Shown one piece after another: positions 13-27,430 of a stretch of DNA of 64,000 bases (position 1 is the first letter of the stretch; every line of letters starts with the position of its first letter). The DNA comes from Maylandia zebra (taxonomy: Eukaryota; Chordata; Actinopteri; Cichliformes; Cichlidae), in assembly GCF_041146795.1 (NCBI RefSeq), contig NC_135177.1:24556060-24620059 (forward strand), read 5' to 3'. The notes below the pieces were generated by a model. The model made no database searches. It was not told the origin of the DNA and saw only the letters and a program-made list of their open reading frames with translations. The position numbers and the translations under genes are program-made.

Positions 13-179
13 GTACTGCCGACGATTGCCCACTGGGACTCTCCTGTTGGATGTGGATTGCAATAGGGGTGTGCTGCCAGTTTGGGATGTTCCTGATAGT
101 TTGTGTCACAGTCTTGTGTAAGTGCATGAATGGAAGGATGGTATGTGAGGAAAGGCGTTCATCAAGTATTTATGTATAG
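13..179 (+). CDS. CD4-2-like receptor copy 1, last coding exon only (5' part lies outside the window)
   Basis: This is the transmembrane exon of a CD4-2-like gene whose earlier exons lie left of the window. An AG acceptor at 11-12 opens a phase-1 exon starting TADDCPLGLSCWMWIAIGV, with a hydrophobic segment through FLIVCVTVLC and a basic stop-transfer KCMNG. Reading on without splicing gives VCEERRSSSIYV and a stop at 177-179. A GT at 141 could act as a donor, but I see no downstream exon with a Cys-X-Cys motif before the Tc1 relic. The exon is clearly homologous to those at 10418 and 18385 and more distantly to 27101. Family assignment rests on copies 3 and 4. Whether the gene is functional cannot be judged from this fragment. 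Confidence 0.75.
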
Positions 180-463
180 TGTTGATAGCTGTGGTTACAG
201 ATTATGTTGGTCTAACCTCTTCGCCGAATGTGTAACTGATCAGATTCATAGTTTCACTACACCAAGCTCTTACAAAGTCCTGGACATTTCACAACTGGCA
301 AAAGTCTAACTGAGTGTCTCGGATTATCTATTACACTCTTCAGTAAATCAGTAGATGTACAGATGAAGTATTTGTTTTGTTTCCTGGGCTTTGCTGAGTA
401 AAACCGAGAACCACCTGAAATCTCTCAGACATCTGTTCAGGCTTTTCTCCCAAATTACACTTT

Positions 464-1640
464 ATTGCCAAAAGTATTTATTCGTCTGCCTCCAAACGCA
501 CATGAACTTGAGTGACACCCCATTTTTAATCCACAGGATTTAATATAATGTAGGCCCAACTTTTTCAGTTATAACAGCTATAATTCTTCTAGGAAGGCTT
601 TCCACAAAGTTTTGGAGTGTGTTTATGGGAATTCTTGACTGTTCTTCCAGAAGCACAGTTGTGAGATCAAACACTGAGATGAGAAGGCCTGGTTTGCAGT
701 CTCTGCTCTAATTCATCCTAAAGATGTTCTGTTCAAAAGTTCTTCCTCACCACAGTCACTCATCCATGTCTTTATAGACCTTGCTTTGTGCTGTCTTGTA
801 GAGGAACAGGAAGAGGCCATCCTCAAACTGTTCACACAAAGTTGGCAGCATGGAGTTCTCCAAAATGTCTTGGTATGCTGAAGCAGTAACAATTCCTCTT
901 ACTGGAGCGACCAAGCTCTACTCCAGAACAACAATCCCACACAATAATCCCCTCTACACCAAACTTTACAGTAAGTCCAATGCAGTCAGACAAGTACCGT
1001 TCCCCTGGCAACCTTTAAGCCAGACTCATCCACTGGATTGCCAGATGGAGAAGTATGATTTGTCACTCCACAAATCATCTATCCACTGCTCAAGAGTCCA
1101 GTGGTGGCATGCTTTAAACCACTGCATGTGATGTTTTGCATTGTCTTTGTTGACGTGAGGCTTGGATGCAGCTGCTTGGTTGTGTAAAACTCATCCCATG
1201 AAGCTCCCTGTGCACTGTTCTTGAGCTAATCGTAAGACCTGAAGTTTGGAGGTCTGTTGCGATTGACTCTGCAGAAAGTTGGAGACTCTGCACACTATGA
1301 AGCTCGGCATCCTACCCTGTGATTTTACACAACCTATCACTTTATAGCTGCATTGCTGTCATTCCCGATCGCTTCCACTTTGTTATAATGCCACTAACAG
1401 CTGATTGTGGAATATTTAGTAACAACAACATTTCACAACTGGATTTGTTGCAAGATGGCATCCTATCATGGCACCACACTGGAATTCAATGAGCTCCTGA
1501 AAGCGACTCGTTGTTTAACAAAAGTTTGTAGAAGAGGTCTGAATGCCTACATGGCTTATTTTATACGCCTGTGGCCAGAGAAGTCACTAGAACACCTTGT
1601 TCTACTGATGTCAGCGCCCTAATGGCAGCCAAACATTAGA
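464..1640 (-). mobile_element. Tc1/mariner DNA transposon relic, copy 1 spacer
   Basis: The left end reads 'attgccaaaagtattta' and the body matches, in reverse orientation, my memory of a common fish Tc1-like transposon. That includes the transposase C-terminal region (reverse frames give pieces such as LNASAYQDILDNFI in the paralogous copies) and the 'aatattccacagtca' segment near 1400. Length is close to a full Tc1 element, but the reading frame is heavily broken. Related relics sit at the equivalent place downstream of copies 2 and 3 (10785 and 18890). The right boundary is approximate. Confidence 0.75.
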
Positions 1641-2060
1641 GCGACTTTGTTGTAGCTTCACTCTTTGTGCTAACTCTGACTGTTGGTTTCCACTGCCATC
1701 AGTAGTCACCTTCAGTCCCCTCCTCGACCTGTTAGAGTGAGGAGATAACAACTAATGTGTTTTACAGAAAGAAAACAAAGCACCAAAACAACTTGTTTTC
1801 CTTTGGTTTGGAGATCGTGATTTTTCAATGATTCATGTTTTTTTTTTAATTTTACTTAAAAAAAAAAACTTTGTTACTTCTGTTGTGATAAATAAATGTC
1901 TTTCTGTCAAGCTGTGTGCTCTTTCAATTTTTGTTTCTGATATTTTTTTTCTAGTTTTTGCTCTATATGTTGTCAAAAACAGTGGATAATCTTCATGTTA
2001 ATTGGTCAGCTAAATAGCTTTTAGGGTTGAGCACATAAGCCCCACTCTCCTGCCATTCTA
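1640..2060. other. Cassette spacer without a gene
   Basis: AT-rich spacer that recurs with divergence after the Tc1 relics of copies 2 and 3 (about 11590-11940 and 19740-20050). It includes 'gataaataaatg' near 1889, resembling a polyadenylation signal, and a diverged echo of the same sequence near 2975. No open frame or exon is recognisable. Confidence 0.5.
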
Positions 2061-2283
2061 ATCTTGTATTTGTGAGGGGCAGCCAATCAGAAGAAAGTTT
2101 TCTCAAGGTGGGTAAAGCTATCTATTAGATAAATATTAACTAAATATTAGATAGTATTACACAAATAAGGCTCACCTGTCAATCTAAGTGGTCAGTTGGT
2201 GTGTTTTGGAGACGTTTTAATGGATTGTGTGACTAATATTCTGATATCTAATAACCATCCCAGAGGTTCGTGCTTCAGTTCAG
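2060..2283 (+). promoter_or_regulatory. Conserved CCAAT-containing segment ending in a splice donor, upstream of copy 2 (candidate distal promoter and first exon)
   Basis: The block begins near 'agccaatcaga' (about 2088-2098), a CCAAT-box match, and ends 'cttcagttcag' followed by the strong donor GTGAGT at 2284. Equivalent blocks lie upstream of copy 3 (split by a transposon, 11980 and 13930-14046) and copy 4 (20060-20315), each about 2-4.3 kb before the start codon. Conserved position plus a conserved donor suggests an untranslated first exon. Transcription is not shown by sequence alone. Confidence 0.35.
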
Positions 2284-3014
2284 GTGAGTGAAATTCAAGT
2301 GTTTTATTAGTTGTCAAAGGAGCTTGCAAAGAAAAGCGTCTGGACTTCTTTAAGTAAGTTCTTTAATAACTAATTAAGTAATTAGTTATTACTTTGAGCA
2401 TATAGAGCTCAAACACATATCAGTAAGTATGTGTCTTATGTGCGTCATACTGTACAGTTTTTTGGATGCAGCTTTTTAACCAAGTAAGCAGAGAACCAAC
2501 TGACCACCCTGAAGGTGGTCTAAAAATGATGATGTTTGCCTTTGTTAACACCTGGGGGAGGCTAATGAGGCTTCAGAAGATGGATTTCACAACCATTAAT
2601 GACATCTGTAACTGAGTTTGTCAGGGTGCATGGCAAGAACGGGACCCAAATGCAGGACCTTCCAGTCCGAGACAGTGTGTTTATTTATAGTGGCAATTAG
2701 TGAGCAATGTGCAACAGTTTCAATAACGTGGTTCCCGAGTCCTGCTCCATGCTTGTGTTCCTGTGACAGACAAACAACTGCAACACTTGATTTCACAGTC
2801 GCTCCACTCTCCTAAACCTGGTAAGACAAGAGGGGAAGATCAGTGACGAAATGCTGAACACAATATTTGAACACAAACACAACACAAAAGAATAAAACTG
2901 AGTTTAACTCTTTAAATCAGCTCATTTACCTTCATTTTCTTTTATATTGAAAACTATTACTTTCTTACTTCTGCTGTGATGAATAAATATTGGTCTTTTT
3001 TCAAACTCTTATGT
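2284..3014. other. Spacer upstream of copy 2
   Basis: No coding exon seen. From about 2616 to 2830 there is a sequence starting 'tgtcagggtgcatggcaag' that resembles the end of an LTR-type repeat, as in the solo LTR at 4601, but with no identifiable second end. The rest is AT-rich. Confidence 0.35.
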
Positions 3015-3100
3015 TCTTAGTCGTATAAAGCGCTTTGAGTGCTCAGACAGAGTAGAAAAGTGCTATATAAGAACCAGTCCATTTACCATTTACCATTTTT
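3015..3100 (+). repeat. 3' end of a tRNA-derived SINE
   Basis: 'aaagcgctttgagtg' followed by 'gtgctatataagaaccag' is the conserved 3' tail seen in the fuller SINEs at 34671 and 35090. The tRNA-like head is absent, so this is a 5'-truncated copy. Confidence 0.65.
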
Positions 3101-3130
3101 TCTATTTTTCCTGTTATGACTTACAGACAT

Positions 3131-3167
3131 GAGTAGCAAACCCACAAAGATCTGGGGTTTGCTACTC
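3131..3167. repeat. Perfect 13-bp hairpin duplicated from the CD4-2 5' region
   Basis: Arms 3131-3143 (gagtagcaaaccc) and 3155-3167 are exact inverted copies around an 11-base loop. A shorter form of the same stem-loop occurs in the proximal 5' region of copies 2, 3 and 4 near 3540, 15762 and 23490. Confidence 0.7.
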
Positions 3168-3339
3168 ACATCTCAATTAAGGAAAATTAGTGAAACTGTG
3201 TATAAACAAATTTCCATGATGGAGTCAGTTCAGTAGAGACAAATTTCTATTTTTCTTCTTAAAGACTTCTCATTTCTGATGAGCAGTCAGATAAAGTTAC
3301 ATAAAACTCTGTGTTCTTTCTGTTCTTCCTATTATGACT

Positions 3340-3736
3340 TCCCTGTTTAGTTCCAAGTTATTTTCACTTCTCTGTTACAGGAATCATTGTGATCACATTG
3401 CGATCCATGAGCGTAATCCTACTGAGTGTGTGCAGCTGAGCCTTTTTTAAGTCACTGTGCAGAACTTTCTTCAGCTTTTTGTAAGAACTGCACTGAGTAG
3501 AAAATGCCAGGCCTAGATTGCAGGAAAATGCAGACCTGAGTAGCAAACCTACAAAGATCTGGGGTTTGCAGTGGCCTACAACTTTGCAGAGTGCAGCTCT
3601 GTCTTCAGATGTCTTCCACCTTCTACACTTTTGCATCCTTGAGATCTTATTTTCAGTGAAGTGAAGCACAGAGGAAGAAAAAATATTTTAGCTTCAATAA
3701 CTGAACTAAAAGACACAGAATCTGTTCAAAATTAAG
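3340..3736 (+). promoter_or_regulatory. Copy 2 proximal 5' region with untranslated exon (donor at 3737)
   Basis: This block is strongly conserved before copies 2, 3 and 4. It ends 'caaaattaag' directly before the donor GTAAGAG at 3737. The next acceptor, 'ccctcag' at 4487-4493, opens the exon holding the start codon, so the block likely contains a 5' UTR exon. I see no TATA box at a convincing place and the start of transcription is unknown. Confidence 0.5.
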
Positions 3737-4506: not shown

Positions 4507-7500
4507 ATGAAGGTGATTGTGTTGTTTGTGTTTGGTGAGTGAATATACTTGTGAAGACAATATTGTGAATAATACTTTAAAATACTGCACATACATGTTG
4601 TGTCATGAATCGCTGTGTGGCAGGCAGGCAAGCAGGAGTGGTGGACCCAAAATGCAGAACTCAGACACGGAAGTAGTGATGGCCCGCTTGAAGCTGACGC
4701 TCCGGAGCGTGTGTCGAAAAAAAACAACACACTGGTTCAGAAGCACTGTGTCGAGGCTTGCTTCGTTTGGCAAAAGTCACGTGACCAGTGACGTCCGAAG
4801 CTTCATTACGCACGTAACTGCTTCGGTACCTGATTCAAACGGATATAAGGAAGTGAATCATCCACGGGATTCGTGGAGTGTGTTGATGGTGACAGATAGC
4901 GACGAGGTGATCATTCCACTGACAGATATGGAGCCAGCGAGGAAGAGAGGACGTTCTGGCGTGTGGGAGTATTTTGAGTTGATTTTGCTCAATTCATTTT
5001 ATCTGCCGAAGTGAAAAACTTGAAATATCCAAAATCATGTTTTCATAATGTAAATATCATTACAGCATATGACTTTAGGAACACTTCCATGTGAATTAAA
5101 GCTGATGAAGACTACAACAATGTATTTGACACTATACGTACATTACATTGCTACACAGTTTAGAAAATCATTTTGTTTATTGTTTTTAGGTGATAGTCTG
5201 CAGGACCCAGGAATACCTGCATATCTACCAACTTGCAGTGTAGTTCCTGCACTCCACAGCCTCTTCTGTTCCATGCAAGTGGATTTTCTCCAGGGCAGGA
5301 GAAACTATTTCTAAGAAAAGAAACAGACTCAGCCAGCGCACAGTAACACTAATCCTCTTTTTAAATGTAAATAACAAAAGGGCTACCTTACATTGATCAT
5401 GTTTTTACTTTGCAAGTTCTTGATTAGGGGTGGGTTTTGATTATCGCCTTTCTGATTACAATCCATGCTAAATTGAATAAAGTGATATTGATTCATTAAA
5501 ATCCCGTGTCGATTTGTAAATTAACGTTATTATGCCTGAAACGCCAGCATCTCAGGTTAAACCTCACAACATGTCGTCAAACACCATACAGCTAAAACAG
5601 TAACTGGGAGCAGGTTTACGGATTCTGCATACAAACGTAAACACAGAGCGCGGACCCGACACGTCAGAGTCAGATTTTGGTGTGTCGTCGGGTCCGCGCT
5701 GTGTTTGCCTCTTTTTTTTTTTCGCTGGCTTCTGCAGCTGCAGGTTTCATAACTCTCTGTTTACATCTCTAATTAAGTCTCACATGTGTCAGCTTTCTTT
5801 TAATAGATACGAAATTATGGATATATACTGATACATGACCAGAATTGTAATATTTCTGACTGAGGCAAAACTTTCCAGATTCCAATCTAATTGAATCGGA
5901 TCCTGTATCGAATCAAAAATGATTCTACAAATCAGTGACGATGCAGCCGTACTCAGCCCCCTAAGCATTTTCCCTTTCCAGTTCACAATCAATCCCACCC
6001 CTAAGTCAAAAATATGTATAGGACAATTGGCCTAATCTAATATTTTGTATGAACCTGTCCAGCTGTCCAGTGATTAAACGACAAGTAGATGGAGGCAGGA
6101 CTTCACAGCAGGGGCATACTCCATAATGTGCTGTGCATTCTCATATGTATATTATATATATTGCTCACTTATTGTATTTACCAACATCAAGGAGTTATGA
6201 GCAAAGAAAGGCCACACCATAGTGCATGTTTAAATAGGGAAAGTTTATTGATCAAAATGTATTACGCAGATACGCATTACATTTTTTTCAGCCCCCCAAT
6301 CGAGAAAACAAAACCAATTACATGTTCAAAGCAACGGAACGGTGGCCCAATATCAGAGAGAACTCCACTCTTGAGTGAGCAGCGATGATTGAGCAGTCCG
6401 TTTTATTTTGCAGATTCAAGCTGCTCTTCAAAATTTTCACCACCAGATGTCACCGGAGAGGACTGTGTTGAAAAGCTTCGAGTAATGAACCGTTTTTCAA
6501 TACAAGCTTCAGTGCTTCGGAAAGCTTCATTTGGCCATCACTACACGGAAGTGAAACTGAAAGCGCAGCTTTATTGCTGGGAAAAACCTCGTACAAACTA
6601 AACTCACCAAAAGACAAACAAAAGTCTGAACAGAGGAACCAAGGACTGAAACACTGGAAAAGAAAACTGGAGCAGGAGACTAAACACTAGGCACATAGAA
6701 GCAGAACACACAGCTAGTTGAGGGTACAACGCAACACTGACACAGAGAAACACAGGGCTTAAATACACAGACGGTAGTAATCAAGGGATGAGAGACAGGA
6801 GGGGAACACACCTGGGAGAAATCACAGCTGACGAGACAGGGGAAATGTAAACTGAGCACACTCACATAAGACACAGACCTTCACAATAAAACAGGAAACT
6901 CAGACACAGGGAACCAGACAAGATGCTGAACTGAACAGACAGATTCACAAACAGACGGGGTGACACCATAGACAGACAGAGATACAGACGCAGACTCAGA
7001 GGCAGACCGAAGAGAACTCAAACAATAATAATCATCATAATAATAAACTAGAAAATGATAATAATAAACTTAAAGCGCTGGGTCACCGACCTAGGACCAT
7101 GACATGTTGTAGATGGTGTGTGATCTCATGTTTGATCTAATTGAAAAATCATGTATAAATATGGTTGTAGTGGTGTTTTACTCAGGTTCTCTAACATAAA
7201 GAGAGAATATGACTTGTTTTGTCTCCATGCAGAGACATTTCTTGTATCCTCCTTTAAATACACATTAATAAAAGCAGAGTATTTATTAACTGTGATTGTC
7301 TTCTTTTCAGTGCTGGGTGCACTCTCTGCTGCAGGTGAAGATTTCTTTGCAAAAGTCGGGGGGAAGGTCACATTGAACTGTGGGGTCAGCAGCTACAGAC
7401 ACACTCTGCAGTGGCATCATGGAACTGACGTTGTGTTTAATGTTGATCAGAGAGGCTTCACTCGCAAAGGTACTTGAGAATCTCAGAATACTTAACAGTT

Positions 7501-10500
7501 AACATCAGTATATGATGACTAATTATATTAGAGCCTATTTCTATTTTCTGTGTTAGGACTTGTTGAACTTGCACGGAGGTCAGTCGTGAGACAGAACAAT
7601 CTGGAAATCTCCAGTGTGAGAGAAACAGATACCGGAGAGTTCAAATGTTTGGCAGATGGGACACGTCATGAACATTCACTTTCTCTGTTCTCAGGTAAAA
7701 AGCAGACCCTGGAAAATTGCAAATTTTTTTACAAATAAATGTTCACATTTAATGGATCAGTGATGGGTTTAACATATTAGGCCTGTTATGTTTTTGTTTT
7801 AAGGATCCTTCCACGTTACACTGATAATCAGATTAATAAAAACATCACTGCTGTGATGCTTTAACAAACTCTGTGCTACAGACATCCTTCCTGCTAAAAC
7901 TTTGTCCTCTCTGATTCCAAACTGCGACATCAAACAAATAATACAAAGTAATCAAGGCCTGCTCTTTTTTCTTACCAGCTGTATAACTACTTATTACAAT
8001 TGCTCTACAGTTAAATGTTTATTTATGATATTTTCATATCACCAAAAATGTTCCCATGTGTGAAAGAGTTACCACTTTCCCTTTAATACTTAGTGTAAGA
8101 TGCTCTCACTGTTTTTCCTCTCATGTTATAAAGCTTTGTCACGTGTGTAATGAGTTTGGATGAAGCACTTTGTTTGTCTCCCTTTCTCTTTGTGATTCTC
8201 ACTGTATCTGTTGTTGTCCATCTGTTCTCCTTCTCAGTTTTGGTCTCCGTCAAACCCTCTGCTGTTCTCAAGCTGAACGATGAGGCAACGCTCCAGTGTG
8301 AGGTTATAGGTCAGCACCATGGTTGTGAAGTAGAGTGGAGGCGTCTAAATACATATTTACCCTCAAATACATCAACAGTTCAACTCAAACCTGTAAAAAC
8401 CTCACATAATGGTCCCTGGCTGTGTTTCGTCACCTGTGGCAGGAATACGTTTATTGAGCGTCTGGCCATCAAAGTACAAGGTAATACACAGTTACTAGGA
8501 ATGAAGACCCATGTTTACATATGTGGTCAACGAAGCATAAAGATCTGTGTTTTTGTTCTTCAGAGCCTCCAACTACAACAACTCCACCATCCACCCCGAA
8601 GAACGTCACATTTGTAACGAGTGTTTAGAAGACAACATGTGGCTGGCAAAATCCCATCACCACCTCCTCGCGGTGCCAGCTGGAAACAACGACCCTCGGG
8701 AAGTTGGCTAACGGTGAGGGTCCTCGACGTCAGGTGGAGTGACGCGCCGGTCGATGTAATCCACAGTCACATCCCATGCAATGACGTCTCAAAAAGCTAG
8801 GGCGTCCCCCGTCGCAGCCGTTAAAAATATGGAGAATGGCAAAGCGACCGGACCAGACGACATACCAGCCGAAGTCTGGAAGCTGCTCGGGCGCCAAGGC
8901 GCCTTAGTCCTCGCCAGCCTGTTCAATAGCATCATCAGAGACGGGACCGTCCCAGCAGCCTGGTCAACCAGCATAACGGTGCCCATCTGGAAAGGGAAAG
9001 GCGATGTGGCTGAATGCTCCAACTACCGCCCGATCCGACTCCTAAGCCATACCATGAAGGTTTTCGAACGGATCATCGACGCCAGGATGCGAGAAATCGT
9101 CAACTTAACGCCCAACCAATGTGGCTTCATCAGGGGGCGTGGCACGACGGACGCCATCCATGCTGCCCGCCTGCTTTTGGAGAAGCACCGAGAGAAGTCC
9201 AAGACCATCCACATGGCCTTCCTCGACTTGGAAAAGGCGTTTGACCGTGTCCCACACGACCTCATCTGGCACTCCCTGCGATCACATGGAGTTCCTGAAG
9301 CCTACGTCAACTGGACAAAGCTCCTCTACCGACAAGTCACCAGCGTGGTCAGAAGCCCAGTGGGAACATCGCCGCCCTTTAACATCAATGTGGGCGTCCA
9401 CCAAGGCTCGGCACTCTCCCCGCTGCTCTTCATCCTTTGCATGGACACTGCGACGGCGGATCTCCAGTCACCCCATCCCTGGACACTTCTCTACGCCGAC
9501 GATGTCTTCCTGGCCGATGAATCGCGAATAGAACTGCAATACCAAACGCAGCAGTGGAAGACTCGCCTAGCTGACTTCAGCCTGAGGCTCAACACCAACA
9601 AGACCGAATACTTAGAGGCTGGCCCCCAGACCGACGGCACGATCAGCGTCGATGGAGAAGATCTGGCGAAAGTACCTCATTTCAAATACATCGGATCGAT
9701 GATCAGCAATGACGGCGATATCCTACTAGATGTACGAGCCAGGATCAACGCAGCGTGGATGAAATGGCGCCAAGTCACCGGCGTCCTGTGTGACCGAAGA
9801 ATGCCCAATCGCCTCGAGTCAAAGATCTACAAGAGTGTAGTGCGCCCCGTCGCCCTCTATGGATCCGAGTGCTGGCCAGCCACCGCAAAGCACGAACAAG
9901 CCCTTCACACGATGGAAATGCGGATGCTGCGATGGTGCCTAGGCCTGACACGATGGGACCACGTCATGAACACCGACGTTAGAAAGAGGATGGGAATCGC
10001 GCCAATCACAGATAAGATGAAAGAAGCAAGGCTGCGGTGGTACGGACATGTGGTACGGAGCGATGAGAACTCAGTGGTGAGAACAGCACTGCGGCTCAGC
10101 CCCCAAGGACGTCGACCTAGAGGCAGACCAAAGCGGAGATGGATGGACCGAATCAAGGACGACGTGAAGAAGATCGAAGCCGATCTGACCGATGCCCTTG
10201 ACCGACCCAAGTGGAGACGACTTTGCAGAAAAGCGGACCCTGCAACCGAGTGGGAAAAACGCTAGGAGGAAGAAGAAGAAGTTTAGAAGACAACATGTAC
10301 AACATGTGTGTCCAGCTTTTGAAAAATGTCTGAAAATTGGATCAAAGTGATCCTTTGTTGAATGTGTAACTCATTCTTGTCATTCTCACTTTGTCCAATG
10401 ATCTGTGTTGCATTCAGGTGTTGCCAACGATTGCCCACTGGGACTCTCCTGTTGGATGTGGATTGCAATGGGGGTGTGCTGTCAGTTTGTTCTCCTGATA

Positions 10501-10581
10501 GTTTGTGTCATTGTCTTGTGTAAGTGTATGAGAAGAAGGAGGGTATGTGAGGAAAGGCGTTCATCAAATATTTATGTGTAG
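4507..10581 (+). CDS. cd4-2-like: CD4-2-like receptor copy 2, disrupted (premature stop and LINE in stalk exon)
   Basis: Coding exons: 4507-4534 (MKVIVLFVF), 7311-7469 and 7557-7694 (Ig D1), 8238-8480 (Ig D2), 8564 onward (stalk EPPTTTTPPSTPKNVTF) and 10418-10581 (transmembrane and tail). D1 shows NCGVSS, the QWHH tryptophan and a TGEFKCLAD F-strand. D2 shows LQCEV, GCEVEW and NGPWLCFVTC. Two features disrupt it. A TAG stop at 8626-8628 ends the stalk exon, and the donor used by copy 3 (GGTACA) reads AAGACA here. An RTE-type LINE then lies at 8641-10280. Used as is, it would encode a 210-residue protein with two Ig domains and no membrane anchor. Because exons 4 and 6 are both phase 1, skipping the stalk exon would restore a 243-residue membrane form. 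Intron 1 is enlarged by nested transposons. It could be a pseudogene. Confidence 0.7.
4674..6543 (+). mobile_element. hAT transposon (ZBED-type transposase remnant) nested in the solo LTR
   Basis: Inverted ends TAGTGATGGCC and GGCCATCACTA are flanked by a perfect 8-bp duplication 'cacggaag' (4666-4673, 6544-6551), the hAT signature. At 4928 a short frame starts MEPARKRGRSGVWEYFELI, which looks like the N-terminus of a BED-finger hAT transposase. The rest of the transposase is missing, so this is a non-autonomous derivative of 1870 bp. It also contains a strong internal stem-loop (about 5639-5660 with 5687-5706). Confidence 0.8.
5425..6003. mobile_element. Candidate small hAT-like element nested in the hAT transposon
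   Basis: The block begins 'taggggtgggttttgatta' and ends with the near inverted copy 'caatcaatcccacccct' + 'a'. Inverted ends of about 17 bp and a 'taggggtgg' start fit a short hAT-type MITE. The flanks (agttcttgat / agtcaaaaat) are at best a degraded target duplication, so the call is tentative. Confidence 0.45.
8641..10280 (+). mobile_element. RTE-type LINE, 5'-truncated, with an open 494-codon reverse transcriptase frame (8781-10265)
   Basis: The frame shows reverse transcriptase blocks in order: KATGPDDIPAEVW, then NYRPIRLLS, FLDLEKAFDRVPH (motif A), GVHQGSALSPLLF (motif B) and LYADDVFLADES (motif C, YADD). A C-terminal part follows with LRWYGHVVRSDE and RPRGRPKRRWMDRIKDD. This layout fits the RTE group as I recall it. 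No endonuclease domain is present. The element ends in a short GAA/GAAG tail and is flanked by a perfect 18-bp duplication (8623-8640, 10281-10298). The first ~140 bases have no long frame (a TAA in the RT frame at 8757-8759), suggesting a 5' region joined by internal deletion. The sequence is visibly GC-rich against AT-rich surroundings. It is inserted in the stalk exon of CD4-2 copy 2. Confidence 0.88.
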
Positions 10582-16204: not shown

Positions 16205-18551
16205 ATGAAGGTGATTGTGTTGTTTGTGTTTGGTGAGTGAATATACTTGTGAAGACAATATTGTGAATAATCCTTTAAAATACTGCACATACATGTTGTA
16301 GATGGTGTGTGACGTCATGTTTAATCTACTTGAAAAGTCATACTTGAAAAGTATGGTTGTTGTGGTGTTTTACTGATCCCAGGTGGTTTAATGTCACTCT
16401 ACAAGTTTACAACAAAATGAAGAAAATATGACTTGTTTGTCTCCATGTAGAGACGTTTCTTATATCCTCCTTTAAATAAGCATTGTTAAAAGACAAGTAT
16501 TTATTTACTGTGATTGTCTTCTTTTCAGTGCTGGGTGCACTCTCTGCAGCAGGTGAAGATTTCTTTGCAAAAGTCGGGGGTAAAGTCACATTGAAGTGTG
16601 GGGTCAGCAGCTACATACGCTCTCTGCGGTGGTATCATGGAAATGACCTTCTTTATAGTGTTGATCAGAGAGGCTTCCCTCGCAAAGGTCTTTGATTATC
16701 TCAGAACACTTAACAGTAAAGTATTTGATGGTAACATTATAATAGAACATATTTTTATTTTCTGTGTTAGGCAGTGCTGAACTTGCGTGGAGGTCAGTCG
16801 TGAGACTGACGAATCTGGAAATCTCCAGTGTGAGAGAAACAGATGCTGGACGGTTCACATGTTCGGCAGATTGGACACGTCATAACCATTCACTTTCTGT
16901 GTTCTCAGGTAAACAGCAGACCCTGAAAAATACACATTTACAAATAAATGTTCAAATATAACTGAACAGTGCAGCGTTTAACATATTAGGACAAATATGG
17001 TTTTGTTTTCATTTTCCCTGCACATTACATTGATAATCAGATTAATAAAAACATCACTGCTGAAAAATGAGGGGAAATTATTTTATGTGGCTGATGGTTC
17101 TTTTACTATAACAGGTAAAGGATATACAGCAAATATACAAAATGAATTTCTTGCACAGCATGTCTTGTATATGTTTTGAAATTTGGAGACTACATTTCCC
17201 AAAATCCAACTTAATCCCCTCCTAGTCAACCTGGTGGTGGGCAGGACCACCACAGTGTCAAGTGTGGCCACCCTGCCATTACTGGAGTCCATCAGGAGAA
17301 GGGGAAGCATCGGAGGGGCCACGGACATATGCTGGGCTCTAGAATTACATCCATAGCTATTAAATATTACATAAGACACAACTATTAATTAATAATTCTA
17401 TTTTTTTATACTATTAACTATATAAACAGAATTTTCTTTAAAAAACTACTTTAGCTTTATTCCTTCGTTTTTTATTTCTTTTTGTCAGATAATTGAATAA
17501 AAAGCTTACTTTGTGTTTCTATATGACAGTCATGCCGTGTAAGCAAATTATAACAGTGACCAAAAAAACCAAACCAAACCAAACAGTCCAGGCCTACGCT
17601 GTTCTCTCACCAGCTGGGTCACTACTTATTACCATCCCTCTACAGTTAAATGTTTATTTGTGTTTCATTTCACCAAAAATGTTCCATGTGTGAAAGAGTT
17701 ACCACTTTTACTTTAATTCTTAGTGTAATATGCTCTCATTGTATTTCATCTCATGTTATAAAGCTTTGTCATGTGTAATGAATTTGGATGAAGCTCCTTG
17801 TTGGTCTCCCTTTCTCTTTGTGATTCTCACTGTATCTGTGGTTATCTGTCTGTTTCCTTCTCAGTTTTGGTCTCCGTCAAACCCTCTGATGTTCTCGAGC
17901 TAAACGATGAGGCAACGCTCAGGTGTGAGGTGAAAGGTCAGCACCATGGTTGTGAAGTGAAGTGGAGAAGTCCAAATACATATTCACTCACAAATACATC
18001 AACAGTTCAACTCAAACCTGTAAAAACCTCACATAACGGGCCCTGGCTGTGTATCGTCACCTGTGGCAGGAATACATTTAGTGAGCGTCTGGCCATCACA
18101 GTACAAGGTAATACACAGTTACTAGGAATGAAGACCCATGTCCACATATGTAGTCAATAGAAACATAAAGATGTGTGTTTTTGTTCTTCAGAGCCTCCAA
18201 CTACAACTCCACCATCCACCCCGAAGAACGTCACATTTGTAACGAGTGTTCAGGGTACAACACGTGCAACATGTGCGTCCAGCTTTTGCAAAATGTCTGC
18301 AAATTTGATCAAAGTGATCCTTTGCTGAATGTGTAACTCATTCTTGTTGTCCTCACTTTCTCCAATGATCTGTGTTGCATTCAGGTGTTGCCAACGATTG
18401 CCCACTGGGACTCTCCTGTTGGATGTGGTTTGCGATTGGGCTGTGCTGCCAGTTTGGGATGCTCCTGATAGTTTGTGTCATTGTCTTGTGTAAGTGTATG
18501 AGAAGAAGGAGGGCATGTGAGGAAAGGCGTTCATCAAATATTTATGTGTAG
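16205..18551 (+). CDS. cd4-2-like: CD4-2-like two-Ig receptor copy 3, open, short tail without CxC
   Basis: Exons 16205-16232, 16529-16687, 16771-16908, 17865-18107, 18192-18254 and 18385-18551 join in phase to 265 residues. The signal peptide is MKVIVLFVFVLGALSAAG. D1 (about residues 19-108) has KCGVSS, LRWYHG and AGRFTCSAD. D2 (about 109-189) has LRCEV, GCEVKW and NGPWLCIVTC. A Thr/Pro-rich stalk EPPTTTPPSTPKN follows, then a membrane span near FGMLLIVCVIVLC. The tail KCMRRRRACEERRSSNIYV ends at 18549-18551. The donor that could lead to a further tail exon reads GC here (gcatgt instead of gtatgt), so read-through is the likely form. Lck could not bind through CxC. Expected role is a cell-surface CD4-type receptor, perhaps with ligand binding but altered signalling. 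Confidence 0.8.
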
Positions 18552-18889
18552 AGTTGATAGCTTATGTTAAAAGAAACCAAAAGAAAATGGGTTAAATGCC
18601 TCCTGCACCACTGTGTTTACAGATTATGGTGAACTTCTTCTTAAAGTTCTTCATTGATTGTGTAAGTGATCAGAGTCCTGATTTCACTCCACCAAATTCT
18701 TACAAAAGTTCTGGCACACTTCACAGCTCGCAAAATTCTAAATGACTGTCTCAGATTGAGTATTACACTCTTCAGTAAATTGGTGCAGATGTACAGATGA
18801 GGTGTCGATTTGTTTTCTGGGCCTTCCTGGGTGAAACTAAGAACCAACTAAGATCTCTCAGACATCAGTTCTGGCTTTACACACAGATT
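18552..18889. other. Spacer after copy 3
   Basis: Cassette spacer related to 180-463. No tail exon with a Cys-X-Cys motif is visible. Confidence 0.5.
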
Positions 18890-19735
18890 ACACTTTATTG
18901 CCAAAAGTATTCACTCGTCTACCTTGACACGCATATGAACTTGAGTGACATCCCATTTTTAATCCATAGGGATTAATATGATGTACGACCAACTGTGGCA
19001 GCTGAAACTCTTACAGGAAGGCTTTCCAAAGGTTTAGGAGTGTTTATAGGTGTTTTTGGTGCTTCTGTACACCTGGACACCTGTCTAGAAGCACATTTGT
19101 GAGGTCAGACACTGATGTTGCACTAGAAGGCCTGGCTCACAGTTTCTGCTCTAATTCATCCCAAAGTTGTTCTGTCGGGTGGAGGTCGGGACTCGGTGCA
19201 GGCCAGTCCCGTTGTTCCAACAGGAAGGGGCCATCCCCAAAGAAGAATGAAATTGTCCAAAATGTCTTGGTATGCTGAAGCATTAAGAGTTCCTTTTACT
19301 GGAACTAACCAGCTGAGCCCAACTAATGGAAAACAATCCCACACAATAATCCCCCTCCACCAAACTTTACACTTAGCACAACGCAATCAGACAAGTAGCG
19401 TTCCCCTGGCAACCGTCCATTGCATTGTCCAGATGGAGAATCTTGATTCGTCACTCCAGAGAACATGTCTCCACTGCTCTAGAGTCCAGTCGTAGTGTGC
19501 TTTATGCTGATCTGAAGATCACATGAAGGTTGGAGGTCTGTAGTGATTGACTCTGCTCCGTGATTTTATGTGTCCTACATCTTCATGGGTGTGCTGCTGT
19601 TATACCACTTTGGTGTCATACCACTAAGAGCTGACCGTGGAATATTTAGCGAGGAAATTTCAGAAATGGAAGTGACCAGAACACCTGATTTACTGATTTG
19701 GATGCTTGAGTGAATATTGTTAGTATAATGCCAAG
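18890..19735 (-). mobile_element. Tc1/mariner relic, copy 3 spacer
   Basis: Left end 'attgccaaaagtattcact' and right end 'gagtgaatattgttagtat' are decayed terminal inverted repeats. The minus frame gives KGTLNASAYQDILDNFILL. It sits in the same place as the relics after copies 1 and 2. Confidence 0.78.
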
Positions 19736-20059
19736 TCCCAAACATTAGAGCAACTTCCCCAAGTCTCTTCACTCTTTCTTAACCCTGACTGTTGATTTCC
19801 GCTGCCATCATTTATCACTGCTTCCTCTTCTTTTATTGGACAATTACAGCTTGACATTGTGATAATTTGATGATTCTTGTTTTGTCTTGTTTTTTATTGC
19901 ATAAAGAAAAGCTTTGTTACTTCTGCTGTGATAAATAAATGTTTTTCTGTCAAGTAATGTGCTTTTTAAATTTTTGTTTCTGATATTTTTTTTCTACTTC
20001 TTCTTCTACATGATGTCAAAGGACGTGGATAATGTTAATGTTGTTAATTTTTCAGGTAT

Positions 20060-20315
20060 ATAGCTTTAGCTTTGAGGACATAAGCCCCACCCTCCTGCCT
20101 TTCTTATCTTGTATTTGTGAGGGGCAACCAATCAGATAAGGGTTTTCTCAAAGAGGGTAGGGCTGAATATTAGATGAAAAATTAGATGAAAGCTAAATAA
20201 GCCTCACTTGTCAATCTAAGTGGTCAGCTGGTGCCTTTTGGGGAAGTTTTAATGGATTATGTGACTAATATTCTGATAACTAATAATCAGCCCTGAGATC
20301 TGTGCTTCATCTCAG
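20060..20315 (+). promoter_or_regulatory. Copy 4 equivalent of the CCAAT/first-exon block
   Basis: Contains 'caaccaatcaga' near 20125 and ends 'catctcag' before donor GTGAGT at 20316, matching 2060-2283. It lies 4.3 kb before the copy 4 start codon. Confidence 0.35.
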
Positions 20316-20559
20316 GTGAGTGAAATCAAGTCTTTTATTTGTTTATTACTTGGAACTTGGGATGTGTGGGACTAATCATCGTCATTGTCACTAGTCGTAA
20401 ATGTGAGACTTTTTAAAATTTAAAAATGATGCCCATTGCCAGTAACTTACTTTGTCCTAAATGTTGGCAACACTCTGCCACTAGATGGCGCATTGTTGAG
20501 AAATGCCAAAAATCTGTGAATCAAGCCCTGTGTTAACGACAGGAAATAAGCTTTCTCTG

Positions 20560-20700
20560 AAAGGTGGATGGGCTCTCCCTTGGCGATCGGATGAGGAGTT
20601 CAGTGATTATGGTTCAGATTAGAGCCGCTGCTCCTCCACATCGAAAGGAGACCTCTAAGGCTGTCGCCCCCTGGGTGTTCAGTGTTGTGCCAAAAAGTGA
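20560..20700 (+). mobile_element. Short Rex1-like LINE fragment (cassette copy)
   Basis: Same fragment as 14281-14430, with LSLGDRMRSSVIM readable. Present in both spacers, so it predates the split of these cassettes. Confidence 0.6.
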
Positions 20701-20778
20701 TCCTCTGTCCAAAACTGATTTGTTTTCACGTGTTTCTTATGTGTAATGTCTTTACTTATATTGGTAAATACACTTTAT

Positions 20779-21095
20779 AATAATAATAGATTGCATTTAT
20801 ATAGCGCTTTTCGAGACCCTCAAAGCGCTTTACATTACATTTCCACTATCCATTCACTGTCACGTTCACACACTGGTGGAGGCAGCTACAGTTGTAGCCA
20901 CAGCTGTCTTGGGGCAGACTGACAGAAGCAAGGCAGCCATATCGCACCATCGACCCCTCTGGCCAACACCAGTAGGCGGTAGATGAAGTGTCTTGCCCAA
21001 GGACACAACGACCAAGACAGACAGAGCTGGGGATCAAACGGGCAACCTTCTGGTTACAAGATGAGCTTCCCAACCCTCTGAACCACGATCGCCCC
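20779..21095 (-). repeat. Full-length tRNA-derived SINE, minus orientation
   Basis: Read on the minus strand it starts 'ggggcgatcgtggttcagag', has a B-box-like 'gtttgatcccc', a middle 'gtccttgggcaagacact' and ends 'gcgctatataaatgcaat'. This is a widespread fish SINE layout. Confidence 0.75.
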
Positions 21096-22098
21096 AAACG
21101 TTAGTGAACAGGATTTACAAACATTATATGTAAAATTGAATAATTACCTGTTTTTCAAGTATCTTTATGACTCCATGTTATTGTTTCTATGTCCTTTTTG
21201 GCAACTTAAAATATGTTTACAGAACTATTGTTATATTTGTTGCAATTCCTGCTGTCCACTTGGCCAGATTACTTTTTTTAAAAAGACATTTTTAATGTCA
21301 ACAAGATTTTTTACCTTATATATAAGCCACTGCAAAAACACTGATTGCAGCTTCTACCTTGTGATAGGAATGTCGTTTGTGGCTCAAGATGACTTGATAT
21401 AATTAATCAGGGACACAGTTGACATATGTTTCACATATTATAGGCCAACAAGTTATCTAAAGCAGATATAATACAAACAATTACTTTTTGGCAAACAATT
21501 ACTCAGGCCTACCGATAGAAGACCTGGCCCCTACTTGAAGGTAACAACTCTAACATTTAAATGTCTTAAACCATTTAAAGATGAAACTACATTTGTATTA
21601 AGACAGAATCTGAATTGATGCAGTAACAAATCAAGTTTACAATAGCAGCATTTAGTCAAAATCATAATTTTTTATTTCCTGGACTCTAACGTAAAAAATG
21701 TATTCTGATGTGGAGACAAGTGTCATGCCAGCTTTAATAACTTGTACATTTGGATTATTTTAGGTGGCCCACTACTGCCCTCTATGTGCCATTTTATGTG
21801 AGTTCTTAAGTCCTTAAAACTCTGCAATGGAGCTAGTGACAGCAATATTATCGCAAATATCAGACACAATGTCTGCTTTTATGGGAAACAGGCCACGTTT
21901 GAAAGTGCAGGATTTATATTTAAATCAGTTCTTACATAATGACAAAAATAACAAGCACCTGTTCCCTGGTCAAAAAGAGGAACGTGGAAACTGGGTGGAG
22001 CCATGTGATCAAATCTGTGCTCAAATAAGTCAAAGGAGAGACCAAATCAGTATAGTGATTACAAAGGCATGAAGTCTTAAACATTTCTTCTGTTAAAA
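21096..22098. other. Spacer, nothing recognised
   Basis: AT-rich single-copy-looking DNA. Short open frames have no recognisable motif and no splice context. Confidence 0.4.
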
Positions 22099-22168
22099 AC
22101 CTCCTTGGAGGGTGGAGATGATCTGCTGTAAAGACCCCTGAAGGGAGCAGCTGACAGAAAAAGAAGGG
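22099..22168 (+). mobile_element. 3' end of a LINE
   Basis: 'agatgatctgctgtaaagac' followed by 'cctgaagggagcagctgac' and an A/G-rich end is the same 3' end seen at 63166-63242 after a decayed reverse transcriptase. Confidence 0.55.
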
Positions 22169-23339
22169 ACCGGCTATTTTTCAATGTTCATATTTATTAT
22201 TGACAAATCAGCCCTGGTTGAAGGGATATTTCATAGTTTTAATTAAATTTTTGGAAGCAACTTTAGTCAAATAATAGCAAAAGTAAAAACATTTCTTCCA
22301 GCAGAAACAAACAAAATAGATGAATTCCTTACAAACGTCCAAACGGACAGTTTTTAAGTTATTTATTAGTTCAGTGCAAATATCGGGAAAGAATTGCATT
22401 AAAATAAAATGAGGTAACCTTTGAGCTTCTTCAGCAGGGGGCACCATACTCCACATCTGCTCTGACAAAACTCATTTCATGGCTGCTGATGTGCACAGTC
22501 TGATGTGTTAATCTGTCAAAGAAGTGAAGGTTTGAAGGATTTATATCCATCTATCACCAACATACCTGGAGGAAAAATGTTTGTGTTGTGTCTGAATAGA
22601 AGAAAATGGACCAGTTTCTACTGATGAGTCCTGCTTTAACTTTTATTATGACATCTGTACCTGAGCTGTACATTTGGAGGCAGCAGGTGCTGTTAAACAG
22701 GCCTTTGTGTGTTTTATCTTTGTGTCTCACAGATGGGTGATCGTCAACAATCAGGTGAAGGTGTGCACCACAGAGACCTATGATAGCTCTCCCTCTACTG
22801 CAGGCTGAATGAGGTGATATTTGTCTTTAAATCCTCTGATTACAAACCTCAGGTCTGGTCAGAGAGCAGGTTCAGTTTGTTTCCTGGGCCTTGCTGAGTA
22901 AAACTGAGAACCACCTGAGATTTTGTCAGACATCTGTTCAAGTTTAACTCACAAATAATTTCAGAAAACCAACAAGACCCACAGCTGCTTCGGGTCCTCT
23001 CTGCTTTTATTGGACGATTGGAGTTTGGTGTCATCACTTCAGTCTGACGCCTCCTCCTCCTCTGCCTGTTAGTGTGAGGAAATAAGACAAAGAAAGACTT
23101 TAACATCCACTGTGAGAGAAAATGTCATTTAATGAAAAAGAACTAATGTCTGTCAAAAAAGAAAAAAAAACAGCAAATCAGCTCGTTTACCTTCAGTTCC
23201 TTTTATTTTGAAAACAAATACTTTGTTACTTCTGCTGTGATGAATAAATATTGGTCTTTTTTTAATACTCTGTGTTCTTTCTATTCTTCCTATTATGACT
23301 TCTCTGTTTAGTTCCAAGTTATTTTCACTTCTCTGTTAC
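22169..23339. other. Spacer upstream of copy 4
   Basis: 22855-23055 repeats the cassette segment of 15110-15330, and 23170-23330 repeats the AT-rich block of 15430-15600. No exon recognised. Confidence 0.45.
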
Positions 23340-23688
23340 AGGAATCATTGTGGATCCATGAGTATAATCTGACTGAGTGTGTGCAGCTGAGCTTTTTTTA
23401 AGTCACTGTGCAGAACTTTCTTTAGCTTCTTGTAAGAACTGCACTGAGTAGAAAATGCCAGGCCTAGATTGCAGGAAAGTAGACCTGAGTAGCAAACCCA
23501 CAAAGATCTGGGGTTTGCAGTGGCCTACAACTTTCCAGAGTGCAGCTCTCTCTTCAGATGTCTTCCGCCTTCTACACTTTTGCATCCTTGAGCTCTTGTT
23601 TTCAGTGAAGTGAAGCACGGAGAGGATGAAGAAAGATTTTTGCCTTCAATAACTGAACTAAAAGACACACAATCTGCTCAAAATTAAG
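23340..23688 (+). promoter_or_regulatory. Copy 4 proximal 5' region with untranslated exon (donor at 23689)
   Basis: Equivalent to 3340-3736 and 15401-15957. It ends 'aaattaag' before GTAAGAG, with acceptor 'ccctcag' at 24591-24597 and start codon at 24611. The partial stem-loop lies near 23493. Confidence 0.5.
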
Positions 23689-24610
23689 GTAAGAGCTCAA
23701 CTCACATTTTAAAGTTGGGTTTTATGTTTCAGAATAAATAGTAAGGAGTTAACTCGACTATCCCGGAAACTTTCTGTTTGCTCCGTAATGGAGTTCAAAG
23801 TTACTGCAGAGGCACCAGTTTAAGAGCAAATACAGATGAAATGTTTCAAGTGTTTCAGAAATTGTTGTTTGTACGGAGTCGAAGTTAAAGTCTTTTAAAC
23901 AAACCTGAAGAAAAAATGTGCTGAAGTTTGTTTCTGAGCCTTTGATGTGTACGATCATGTTAATTTAATAGGCTTAAAGATTCGTTAACCTGTGAGTTTA
24001 ATTCTGTGGTTCAGTCACTGAGATTTAATTTTTCAAATGAGGCTCACAGAGTTAAGTTTAAAACTGAGCTTTAACTTTTTTAATTTTTGGCGTGATTAAA
24101 GCAGCTTATGTGGAGGCAGCAAGTGTTAAAATTCATTTTGATGCTAGTTAATTGGACACAATGATCTCAGTTGAGCTGTTTTTTTTAGGAGAATTAATAT
24201 ACACGTCACTTGAGTGGAAACAAATTTATATTTTTCTTCTTAAAACTTCTCATTTCTGATGAGCAGTCAGGTAAAGTTACAGCAGATTTACAGGAAACAC
24301 CTTCACATGAGCTGTTGGTGAGATTAAATTAAAGAGCCACAAGAAATGTTTGACTTTCTCAGTGACACTCTTTTTCACTTTTTAAGTCCAACACTGAGTT
24401 TTATCATTTTTAACATGCGACACAGAGAGAGGACGGAAACAGAGCGAGGGCTTGGTGGTTTCTCTGTAAAGTGTTCATGTGAAGAAGAATCTCTCTGTGG
24501 CTGTGTGTGAAATGAAAGTGTTCACGTTTAATTAGTTTTCTTGTTATGATGTCGTGTTAACAGTAATGTTCATTTGTGTTTTATTTTAAACCCTCAGGTC
24601 GACTTTCAGA

Positions 24611-27430
24611 ATGAAGGTGATTGTGTTGTTTGTGTTTGGTGAGTGAATATACTTGTGAAGACAATATTGTGAATAATCCTTTAAAATACTGCACACACAT
24701 GTTGTAGATGGTGTGTAACCTCATGTTTAATCAAACTGAAAAATCTTCTATAAATATGGTTGAAGTGATGTTTTAATCATCTCAGGTTCTTTAATGTCAC
24801 TGCACAAGTTTACGACGACATACAGAGAATATGACTGGTTTTGTCTCCATGTAGAGACGTTTCTTATATCCTCCTTTAAATAAGCATAATTAAAAGCAGA
24901 GTATTTATTCACTGTGATTGTCTTCTTTTCAGTGCTGGGTGCACTCTCTGCTGCAGGTGAAGTTTTCTTTGCAAAAGTCGGGGAGAAAGTCACATTGAAG
25001 TGTGGGGTCAGCAGCTACACACGCTCTCTGCGGTGGCTTCATGGAAATGACCTTCTTTATAGTGTTGATCAGAGAGGCTTCCCTCGCAAAGGTACTTGAG
25101 TATCTCAGAACACTTAACAGTAAAGTATTTGATGATAACATTATATTAGAACATATTTTTATTTTCTGTGTTAGGCAGTGCTGAACTTGCGTGGAGGTCA
25201 GCCGTGAAACAGAACAATCTGGAAATCTCCAGTGTGAGAGAAACAGATGCTGGACGGTTCACATGTTCGGCAGATGGGACACGTCATGAACATTCACTTT
25301 CTGTGTTGTCAGGTAAACAGCAGACCCTTGAAAATATACAATTACAAATAAATGTTCATATTTATTGGAACAGTGATGGGTTTAACATATTAGGACAGTT
25401 ATGGTTTTGTTTTCTGGATCCTTTCATGTTACACTGATAATTAGGTTAATAAAAATGACACTGCTGTGAAATGAGGGGAAATTTGTTTAATGTGACTGAT
25501 GGTTCTGTTACTATAACAGGTAAAAGGATATACAACAAAAATATACAACGTATTTCTTACACACTATGTTTTGTACTCACATTAGACAATTCAAAGCAGC
25601 AGAGACCAAAATCCAGATTATACTATTGAAAAATCAAGCTCAGAGTACTACATTTCCCTTAATTCAACTTAATCCTCTCCCAGTCAGCCTTCAACATCTT
25701 TAAATAAGTAAGTAAAGTTTATTAATTAAGCGCTTTTCATAGACAGGCCGTCACAAAGCGCTGTACACAAAGATTAAAATAAACAGAAAGTTACGTCACA
25801 GAATTTTCAATATACACAATATTAAAGTTTAATAGTAAATAAAAATGTAAAATTTAAAAAGCGTTGATCAACAGAAGGCTTGTTTAAAAAGATACGTTTT
25901 AAATGCTTTTTAAAGGATACCATAGAGTCAGCCAAACGTAGTTGTGGTGTAAACTGTTCCACAGACTGAAAGGCTCTGTCCTCTTTCAGACGTGTACGGG
26001 GAACAACCTCTTTAACAAACTCTGTTGTACAGGCAGCTTTCCTTGTTTGATGTCTCTAATCCCAACGTGGGACACCACTGAAACTTCCTGAACAGGAGTG
26101 GAGACACGGGGTGGGCAGGACCACCACAGTCTTAAGTTCTTGTTTTTTATTTTAGTGAACGGCTGCTTAAACAAAAAAGCTTATGCTGTGTTTCTATATG
26201 ACAGTGATGCCTGTGTAAGCAAATTATGACAGTTATGGACAAAAAAAATGCAATTTGGTCTACACTAATTTGTAGTAAAGGAAAAGGACACAAACATCAG
26301 CTTGTGATGTAATAAACAGTCCAGGCCGGATCTTTTCTGTCACTAGCTGGGTCACTACTTATTACAATCCCTCTACAGTTAAATGGTTATCTATGATATT
26401 TTCATATCACCAAAAATGTTCCAATGTGTGAAAGAGTTACCACATTTCCTTTAATACTTAGTGTAATATGCTCTCATTCTTTTCCTCTCATGTTATAAAG
26501 CTTTGTCATGTGTGTAGCGAGTTTGGATGAAGCACCTTGTTCAGCATGGTCTCCTTTTCTCTTTGTGATTCTCACTGTATCTGTTGTTGTCCGTCTGTTC
26601 TCCTTCTCAGTTTCGGTCTCCGTCAAACCCTCTGCTGTTCTCAAGCCGAACGATGAGGCAACGCTTCAGTGTGAGGTGAAAGGTCAGCCCCAAGGATGTG
26701 AAGTGAAGTGGCAGAGTCCAAATGCAGATTCTCCCACAGATTCATCAACAGTTCAACTGAAACCTGTAACAAGCTCACATAACGGGGCCTGGCAGTGTAT
26801 CGTCACCTGTGGCAGCAATAAGCTTAGTGAGCGTCTGACCATCACAGTACAAGGTAATACACAGGCACTAGGAATGAAGACCTTTGTGTGCATATGTGGT
26901 CAAAGAAACATAAAGATGTGTGTTTTTGTTCTTCAGAGCCTCCAACTACAACAAAGTCGCCACCCAAACTGAATGGCAAGAGTGAGAAACCCTGCGGCAC
27001 AAACTGTGGGTACAGTTTATCACGACTTCTGCTCACAGAGATCCTTCACTGAATGTGTATCTGACACTTTTAATGCTTCAATAATCTGTTTGGCTTTCAG
27101 GCGGTAATGATGATGCTTCACCGAGGCTGTTGGGGCTAGCCTGGTGGGTGTGGGTTGCCATTGGTGTTGGCTGCCTGGTTGCGATTCTCCTGATGGTTTG
27201 TGTCATAGTCTTGTGCGTGAGAGTCAAAAGAAGGAAGGTGAGTGAGGAGATCCATTCATCACATCTTTATGTGGTGCTGTGATGACTGAAGATGAAACAA
27301 AGAAGAATGGCTCTCTGTAGCAAACAAAAATGCATTTGTTTTCTTCTCTTGTTTTTTATAGAAGAGATTTCTGAAGATGAAGGGCCAACAACGACCCAGG
27401 CATAAGAAATACTGCCAGTGTGACCAGTAA
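24611..27430 (+). CDS. cd4-2: CD4-2 (CD4-related) two-Ig receptor, copy 4, intact with CxC tail
   Basis: Exons 24611-24638, 24933-25091, 25175-25312, 26611-26853, 26937-27005, 27101-27237 and 27362-27430 join to 280 residues. Signal peptide MKVIVLFVFVLGALSAAG. V-type D1 has KCGVSSYTRSLRW and DAGRFTC. D2 has LQCEVKG, GCEVKWQSPN and HNGAWQCIVTC. The stalk is PTTTKSPPKLNGK, the membrane span VWVAIGVGCLVAILLMVCVIVLC, and the tail KRFLKMKGQQRPRHKKYCQCDQ. The CQC motif is the Lck clasp of CD4. 'WQSPN' and 'NGAWQC' resemble D2 of the neighbouring CD4-1, and D1 is split by an intron as in CD4. Two Ig domains, CxC and linkage to CD4-1 match teleost CD4-2. The stalk exon donor is best placed at GTGGGT (27006), because the alternative GTACAG at 27010 would give a stop. 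Intron 3 holds a repeat at 25715-26110. Confidence 0.87.
25715..26110 (-). repeat. Interspersed repeat (LINE 3'-end-like) in intron 3 of copy 4
   Basis: Starts 'aaagtttattaattaagcgc' and is absent from the equivalent intron of copy 3 (17200-17240), where the flanks are continuous. It resembles a dispersed fish repeat, but I cannot name the family firmly. Confidence 0.45.

Follow-up and report, generated by a model that had tools for sequence, protein, structure and literature searches.

CD4-2 of neoteleost fish (fugu and others) is described with a V–C2 ectodomain, a first immunoglobulin-like (Ig) domain (D1) whose coding sequence is split by an internal phase-1 intron, a WxC motif in the second domain (D2) and a separate hinge exon (PMC10768021, used here, like the other articles cited, for its accessible passages). 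CD4-2 of ray-finned fish generally carries the CxC motif that forms the Lck clasp, the exception being CD4-2f, a second CD4-2 gene of the sterlet sturgeon in which the second cysteine is replaced by phenylalanine (CxF; PMC10768021). A tail-less paralogue, CD4-2.2, predicted to be secreted and to have five Ig-like domains, is known from zebrafish (PMC5073357, PMC10768021). In tilapia, CD4-1 and CD4-2 have been described (PMC9595569) and CD4+ cells express both, reported without copy detail (PMC8750066). In 2016 fish CD4-2 was said to have no known function (PMC5073357), and functional differences between CD4-1 and CD4-2 were given as not yet established in 2023 (PMC10768021). Here we analyse 64,000 nucleotides of Maylandia zebra contig NC_135177.1 (the window, located on contig C11 in our genome numbering), which contain CD4-2-like genes in tandem next to a CD4-1 gene. 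The first-pass annotation of this DNA took one or two CD4-2 genes to be usual in teleosts, in agreement with the accessible parts of PMC6323851, PMC9595569 and PMC10768021; the table in PMC6323851 has at most three CD4-2-type entries per species.

The locus shares with neoteleost CD4-2 all of the features listed above, together with a YCQC tail in one copy (c4), and differs from it in having five copies, four of which are without the CxC exon (PMC10768021). The hinge of c4 reads CGTNC (CxxxC) instead of the CxxC described in many species (PMC10768021). As in the sterlet, a defective Lck motif accompanies gene duplication, but here the entire exon is absent. Compared with zebrafish CD4-2.2, the array is larger, and its copies are two-domain proteins with at least two further types of end (short-tailed transmembrane and glycosylphosphatidylinositol-like). 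Given the zebrafish paralogue (PMC5073357), the idea of a tail-less CD4-2 is not wholly new; no report of a five-gene CD4-2 array or of a glycosylphosphatidylinositol (GPI)-type CD4-2 was found in the accessible portions of the open-access literature. On balance, we read the locus as a five-gene CD4-2 tandem array beside CD4-1 that would encode one Lck-coupled and four Lck-uncoupled forms with differing ends, which may compete for major histocompatibility complex (MHC) class II. The earlier proposal of one Lck-competent CD4-2 beside several forms without a CxC tail is supported by the gene models, the genome-wide searches and a scan for hidden exons. To it the present analysis adds a fifth copy with a GPI-like end, a stop codon in the stalk of copy 2, remnant splice donors in copies 1 and 2 and the CD4-1 gene of the window.

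Exon searches of 154 kb of joined sequence (the window and the DNA upstream of it) reveal five CD4-2 ectodomains in tandem. Four copies had been counted previously, and their four 3′ gene ends are confirmed between 13 and 27430, but the array total is five: an extra upstream copy, named c0, and the remainder of copy 1 are located 5′ of the window. Copies 1–4 of the first-pass annotation are termed c1–c4 (Table 1). Each copy consists of a 28-nucleotide (nt) signal-peptide coding stretch, D1 as two exons (159 and 138 nt), D2 (243 nt, in c1 237 nt) and a Pro/Thr-rich stalk (hinge) exon, which follows the two Ig domains in all five and is the terminal exon in c0. AG/GT splice signals flank D1 and D2 in every copy. 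The ectodomain exons differ by 4–27% between copies, and an assembly artefact is therefore an unlikely source of the array. A search of the whole genome (962 Mb, 63 contigs) with the D2 exon gives at least 54 matches at E ≤ 0.01 with 150 of 182 candidates scored; among these, the five strong matches (E ≤ 2.3e-28) all lie inside the array. A large Ig-domain family at 30–35% identity, probably another immune receptor family, accounts for 48 of the 54 listed matches and occupies 11.5–12.8 Mb and 30.7–31.1 Mb of contig C3.

Table 1. Features of the CD4-2 array and the adjacent CD4-1 gene. Positions refer to the window unless marked as genome positions. TM, transmembrane; LINE, long interspersed nuclear element.
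Feature	Position	Strand	Description
c0	C11:24538430-24540281 (genome)		Upstream of window; signal peptide, D1, D2, last exon EPPPTTSTTTASLCSSKDSPKTTFAIVCSVLLSYFLL then stop; GPI-signal-like end
c1 TM exon	13..179	+	Short tail ending CKCMNGRMVCEERRSSSIYV then stop; signal peptide, D1, D2 and stalk upstream, from genome C11:24554288
c1 short tail and stop	141..179	+	Read-through of c4 splice position; donor-like GTATGT kept
c2	4507..10581	+	Ectodomain open; TAG in stalk; LINE separates the stalk from the TM exon (10418-10581); short tail
LINE insertion	8641..10280	+	Reverse transcriptase frame 8760-10265, 501 codons open; Pfam RVT_1, E 9e-35
c2 short tail and stop	10543..10581	+	Read-through; donor-like GTATGT kept
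c3	16205..18551	+	Signal peptide-D1-D2-stalk-TM frame open; short tail ending CKCMRRRRACEERRSSNIYV then stop; GC replaces GT donor
c3 short tail and stop	18513..18551	+	GCATGT where GT donor expected
c4	24611..27430	+	Two-domain CD4-2: hinge exon, TM exon, CxC exon
CxC (Lck-clasp) exon of c4	27362..27430	+	KRFLKMKGQQRPRHKKYCQCDQ then stop; sole match found in genome
CD4-1 gene	45918..48955 (approximate, from open frames)	+	Four Ig-like stretches, WDC and WGC motifs, CxC exon KTRLLRHQLCQCKK, C-terminal SPKPKGFYRT

The separate YCQC-bearing last exon proposed for copy 4 is present. The TM exon of c4 ends at 27237 (AAG/GTGAGT) and joins in phase 0 to a last exon of 69 nt that ends in KKYCQCDQ. 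When the CxC exon peptide is searched genome-wide at E ≤ 10, the only match is c4 itself, and the c3 TM exon as a query at E ≤ 1 gives four matches, which are copies 1–4. A CxC at the usual cytoplasmic position is thus seen in one copy of five, and for this reason c4 is filed as the canonical CD4-2 and c0–c3 as CD4-2-lineage paralogues only. Read past its splice donor, the c4 TM exon (27238–27282) encodes VSEEIHSSHLYVVL followed by a stop codon, which resembles the short tails of c1–c3 (71–76% DNA identity), so that intron retention in c4 could give rise to a short-tailed form.

In c1, c2 and c3 the reading frame continues for 12 residues beyond the c4 splice point to a stop codon, with which the TM exons end, producing the tails VCEERRSSSIYV, VCEERRSSNIYV and ACEERRSSNIYV that share the ending SS(N/S)IYV. 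The segment coding for these tails is homologous to c4 intron sequence. In a self-comparison, the likeness of c2 and c3 to c4 stops at 27312 and 27273, respectively, 50–90 bases short of the CxC exon. The claim that these tails are without CxC holds for the Lck-clasp position, where none is found, but not for the membrane edge, where all three copies carry CKC (VLCKCM). The cysteine pair at the membrane edge of human CD4 is a palmitoylation site, and the CKC of c1–c3 is consequently not counted as an Lck clasp. Since CD4-2 of ray-finned fish generally has CxC (PMC10768021), loss of the exon in c1–c3 would be the simpler direction of change.

The c0 copy ends differently. One further coding exon is found after D2, EPPPTTSTTTASLCSSKDSPKTTFAIVCSVLLSYFLL, with an AATAAA that starts two bases past the stop codon, and the DNA at this stop codon resembles a polyadenylation (polyA)-bearing segment that recurs in the array. 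No TM-like or CxC exon is detected at E ≤ 1 in the interval between c0 and c1. The extreme C-terminus, FAIVCSVLLSYFLL, is preceded by CSSKDSPKTT and forms a hydrophobic end without a cytoplasmic tail. Its mean hydropathy over the last 14 residues is 2.51, but no 19-residue window exceeds 1.44, compared with 2.42–3.16 for the TM segments of c1–c4 in the same measure. GPI signals combine a short hydrophobic C-terminus and the lack of a cytoplasmic tail with a polar spacer and small residues ahead. The c0 end appears to fit such a signal better than it fits a membrane helix, and c0 is predicted to be GPI-anchored.

The stalk of c2 contains an in-frame TAG (8626–8628). The LINE is inserted at the same exon and is flanked by an identical 18 bp target-site duplication (8623–8640 and 10281–10298); the identity of the flanks suggests a young insertion. 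Splicing of c2 from the modelled donor may give a soluble two-domain protein, and an alternative donor further upstream could allow the stop to be skipped.

The motif RGF(P/T)RKG is kept in all five copies and is located in what we take to be the equivalent of the Phe43 loop of human CD4 that contacts MHC class II. In the scheme that we propose, a CD4-2 ancestor that had the CxC exon, the form kept by c4, would have been duplicated repeatedly. In c1–c3 the CxC exon would have gone and the frame would have extended into the equivalent of the c4 intron to give the 12-residue tail. The products would then be a GPI-anchored c0, short-tailed membrane proteins c1 and c3, and a c2 whose splicing would decide between a short-tailed and a soluble form. 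All would retain the D1–D2 head, which in CD4 binds MHC class II, and because of this shared head the Lck-free forms would either rival c4 and CD4-1 as binders of MHC class II or lower the proportion of Lck-coupled co-receptor on a cell that carries both kinds. Either effect may tune the threshold of T-cell activation. A decoy function of the Lck-free copies is plausible. In the CEACAM family, too, Ig-superfamily receptors have been duplicated and decoys are proposed to stand beside an inhibitory receptor, according to the accessible text of PMC13278318; that family is a different one, and its decoys are thought to be pathogen-selected, for which the array offers no evidence. More tentatively, the locus together with CD4-1 may form a graded set of Lck-coupled (c4, CD4-1), short-tailed (c1, c3), possibly soluble (c2) and GPI-linked (c0) molecules, all with MHC class II-binding heads, in which T-cell sensitivity would follow the ratio of signalling to non-signalling forms. 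To our knowledge, Lck-free CD4 forms have mostly been studied as laboratory constructs. A natural set of genes whose heads are alike and whose ends differ would allow the contributions of Lck coupling, anchoring and MHC binding to be compared within one animal, and probes or antibodies for 'CD4-2' in such species may detect several molecules of different function.

Assignment of the array to CD4-2 is based on its phase-1 D1 intron, WxC motifs, two-domain layout, c4 YCQC tail and linkage to CD4-1. An internal phase-1 intron that splits D1 is a marker of the CD4-2 lineage, while LAG-3 is marked by a phase-2 D1 intron and an (F/Y)xxL(D/E) tail motif (PMC10768021, accessible part). Here 28 + 159 nt precede the D1 intron in every copy and its phase is 1; the 45 C-terminal residues of every copy lack (F/Y)xxL(D/E), and a LAG-3 identity is rejected. 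The D2 motifs of c0–c4 are WQC, WEC, WLC, WLC and WQC, respectively. Pfam recognizes two Ig stretches in each of the three copies submitted (c0, c3 and c4). A six-row profile of the five array ectodomains and the neighbouring CD4-1 matches D1–D2 chains of CD4 collinearly over positions 4–173 (best E 5.4e-11).

Several observations weigh against the reading of the locus as one Lck-coupled and four uncoupled CD4-2 genes. In the profile search of the structure library, six other multi-Ig chains outrank CD4; D1–D2 of c4 alone reaches CD4 at E 1.1e-5 with twelve other chains ahead, and with D1 alone other Ig proteins come first and no CD4 chain appears among the 60 matches listed of 196. Binding of MHC class II by the array copies is an assumption of this reading. 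A promoter/5′-exon module precedes c1–c4 (c1 and c2 92% identical over 1.26 kb, c1 and c3 or c4 about 82%), and this similarity suggests that these four may be expressed similarly, but the module of c0 has diverged (about 70% identity) and is without an exact copy of the core element. The remaining points concern the coding frames and the tails and are taken up with the alternatives to which they belong.

That c0–c3 are decaying duplicates of one working gene, c4, their missing tails being the result of degeneration, seems to us rather unlikely. Such decay would agree with the stop and the LINE, both in the stalk region of c2, with a CxC exon found in none of c0–c3 and with the substitution pattern. 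The ratio of nonsynonymous to synonymous changes (dN/dS) of the ectodomain is near 1 (0.71–1.47, above 1 in four of ten copy pairs), as relaxed constraint would also give, and it exceeds 1 in nine of the ten pairs for the signal peptide with D1 and in three for D2. The reading frames behave otherwise. Over the same ten pairs, which are not independent, the D1 and D2 pieces show four gaps in 5,376 aligned bases, none of them frame-shifting (one 6-nt event in c1, counted in four pairs), whereas the intron pieces, some of them poorly aligned, show 115 gaps in 6,214 bases, 93 of which are not multiples of three. The signal peptide–D1–D2 frames of all five copies are free of frameshifts and stops. 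In a simulation of neutral evolution (4,000 runs on a star tree, with c3 as the ancestor and exchange between copies ignored), the five frames remain open together in fractions of 0.01975, 0.0025 and 0.00025 of the runs when each branch carries 0.04, 0.06 and 0.08 changes per site, respectively. The intact AG/GT signals around D1 and D2 likewise speak against decay. A dN/dS near 1 together with open frames therefore means that the frames are maintained, with either weak constraint on the amino acids or rapid change in D1; positive selection on D1 is not claimed, as the counts per pair are small. Some copies are closer to each other in D1 than in D2 (c0 and c4 differ by 4–8% and 18%, respectively), which suggests exchange between copies.

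A further argument against decay is that the short tails are more conserved than the 3′ untranslated region after them. The 38-nt tail segment differs at two positions between c1 and c2, three between c1 and c3 and one between c2 and c3 (92–97% identity), while in gapped alignments the first 150 nt 3′ of the stop are 54, 79 and 47% identical for the same pairs. The intron before the TM exon is nevertheless 83, 84 and 92% identical, so that the contrast, drawn from 38 nt, is a weak one.

A CxC tail gained by c1–c3, through an unrecognised downstream exon or through trans-gene joining of the c1 and c2 GTATGT donors to the c4 CxC exon (phase 0 on either side), is improbable in our view. In its favour, c1 and c2 keep GT exactly at the c4 splice position and in the phase of c4, and they might splice to an exon that our scan does not recognise. 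The c3 copy has GC at this position. The scan covered 131–3500, 10536–15600 and 18506–23400 and looked for CxC-bearing frames preceded by a phase-0 acceptor with 10 or more pyrimidines in 16 positions; it returned one match behind each of c1, c2 and c3 compared with 1.49, 1.37 and 1.44 expected by chance; behind c4 it returned two compared with 0.49 expected, both being the true exon. None of the three candidates resembles the c4 tail. The c3 candidate (20056, motif SCICEG) is located past the c3 polyA motif, and the identical letters in c1 and c2 have a stop codon just upstream. The CxC exon is also without a second copy in the genome search, and polyA motifs of the array and whole genes intervene before c4. 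Equally doubtful is a new signalling type, in which CKC would be a lipidation or metal-binding site and the C-terminal IYV a PDZ-type or tyrosine motif, making c1–c3 alternative signalling receptors instead of decoys: CKC and IYV are retained in all three (a four-arginine stretch in c2 and c3 only) and the tail DNA is highly similar, but the comparison covers only 38 nt of c4-intron homologue and these motif readings are general pattern matches.

The surroundings of the array agree with a CD4 locus. With CD4-1 next to two-domain CD4-2, the gene content is that of a ray-finned fish, probably a neoteleost. The CD4-1 gene is situated about 18 kb downstream; its four Ig-like stretches all match Ig models at E ≤ 4e-4, one match (the third stretch) passing the Pfam cut-off. 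Its SPKPKGFYRT end conforms to the C-terminal CD4-1 motif P(K/Q)P(K/R)(A/G)FY(H/K/R) (PMC10768021, accessible part). The Pfam model of the CD4 C-terminus (PF12104) gives 17 weak matches in the genome; all fall below the cut-off and lie away from both the array and CD4-1, so that the model is uninformative here. Upstream, one frame matches USP5 (best E 5e-35) and another PEX5 (E 2.5e-22, with a single engineered repeat protein ranking higher). A third encodes a G-protein β subunit, for which the lowest E belongs to a two-stretch β1 chain, followed by β3 (2.5e-39) and single β1 chains (about 1e-34), and which we read as a probable GNB3. Genes for USP5, a G-protein β subunit and PEX5 lie near CD4 in other vertebrates. 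Two short pieces of frames downstream of CD4-1 gave no Pfam match; these frames, at 51920–52480 (− strand) and 58815–60815 (+ strand), resemble C-type lectin genes.

Two short elements recur within the array. A near-palindromic element, GCAAACC(C/T)ACAAAGATCTGGGGTTTGC, is conserved 5′ of c1–c4 (3558, 15781, 23507 and, upstream of the window, −2677), with extra copies at 3151 and −3520. The polyA-bearing segment (CTTC..TG.TGTGAT.AATAAA) is repeated at 1877, 2968, 19920, 23229 and, upstream, −3814 and −15790, and one of these segments, searched against the genome, gives at least six matches, all within the array. Some of these segments precede genes with no gene body seen before them, and they are possibly relics of lost copies.

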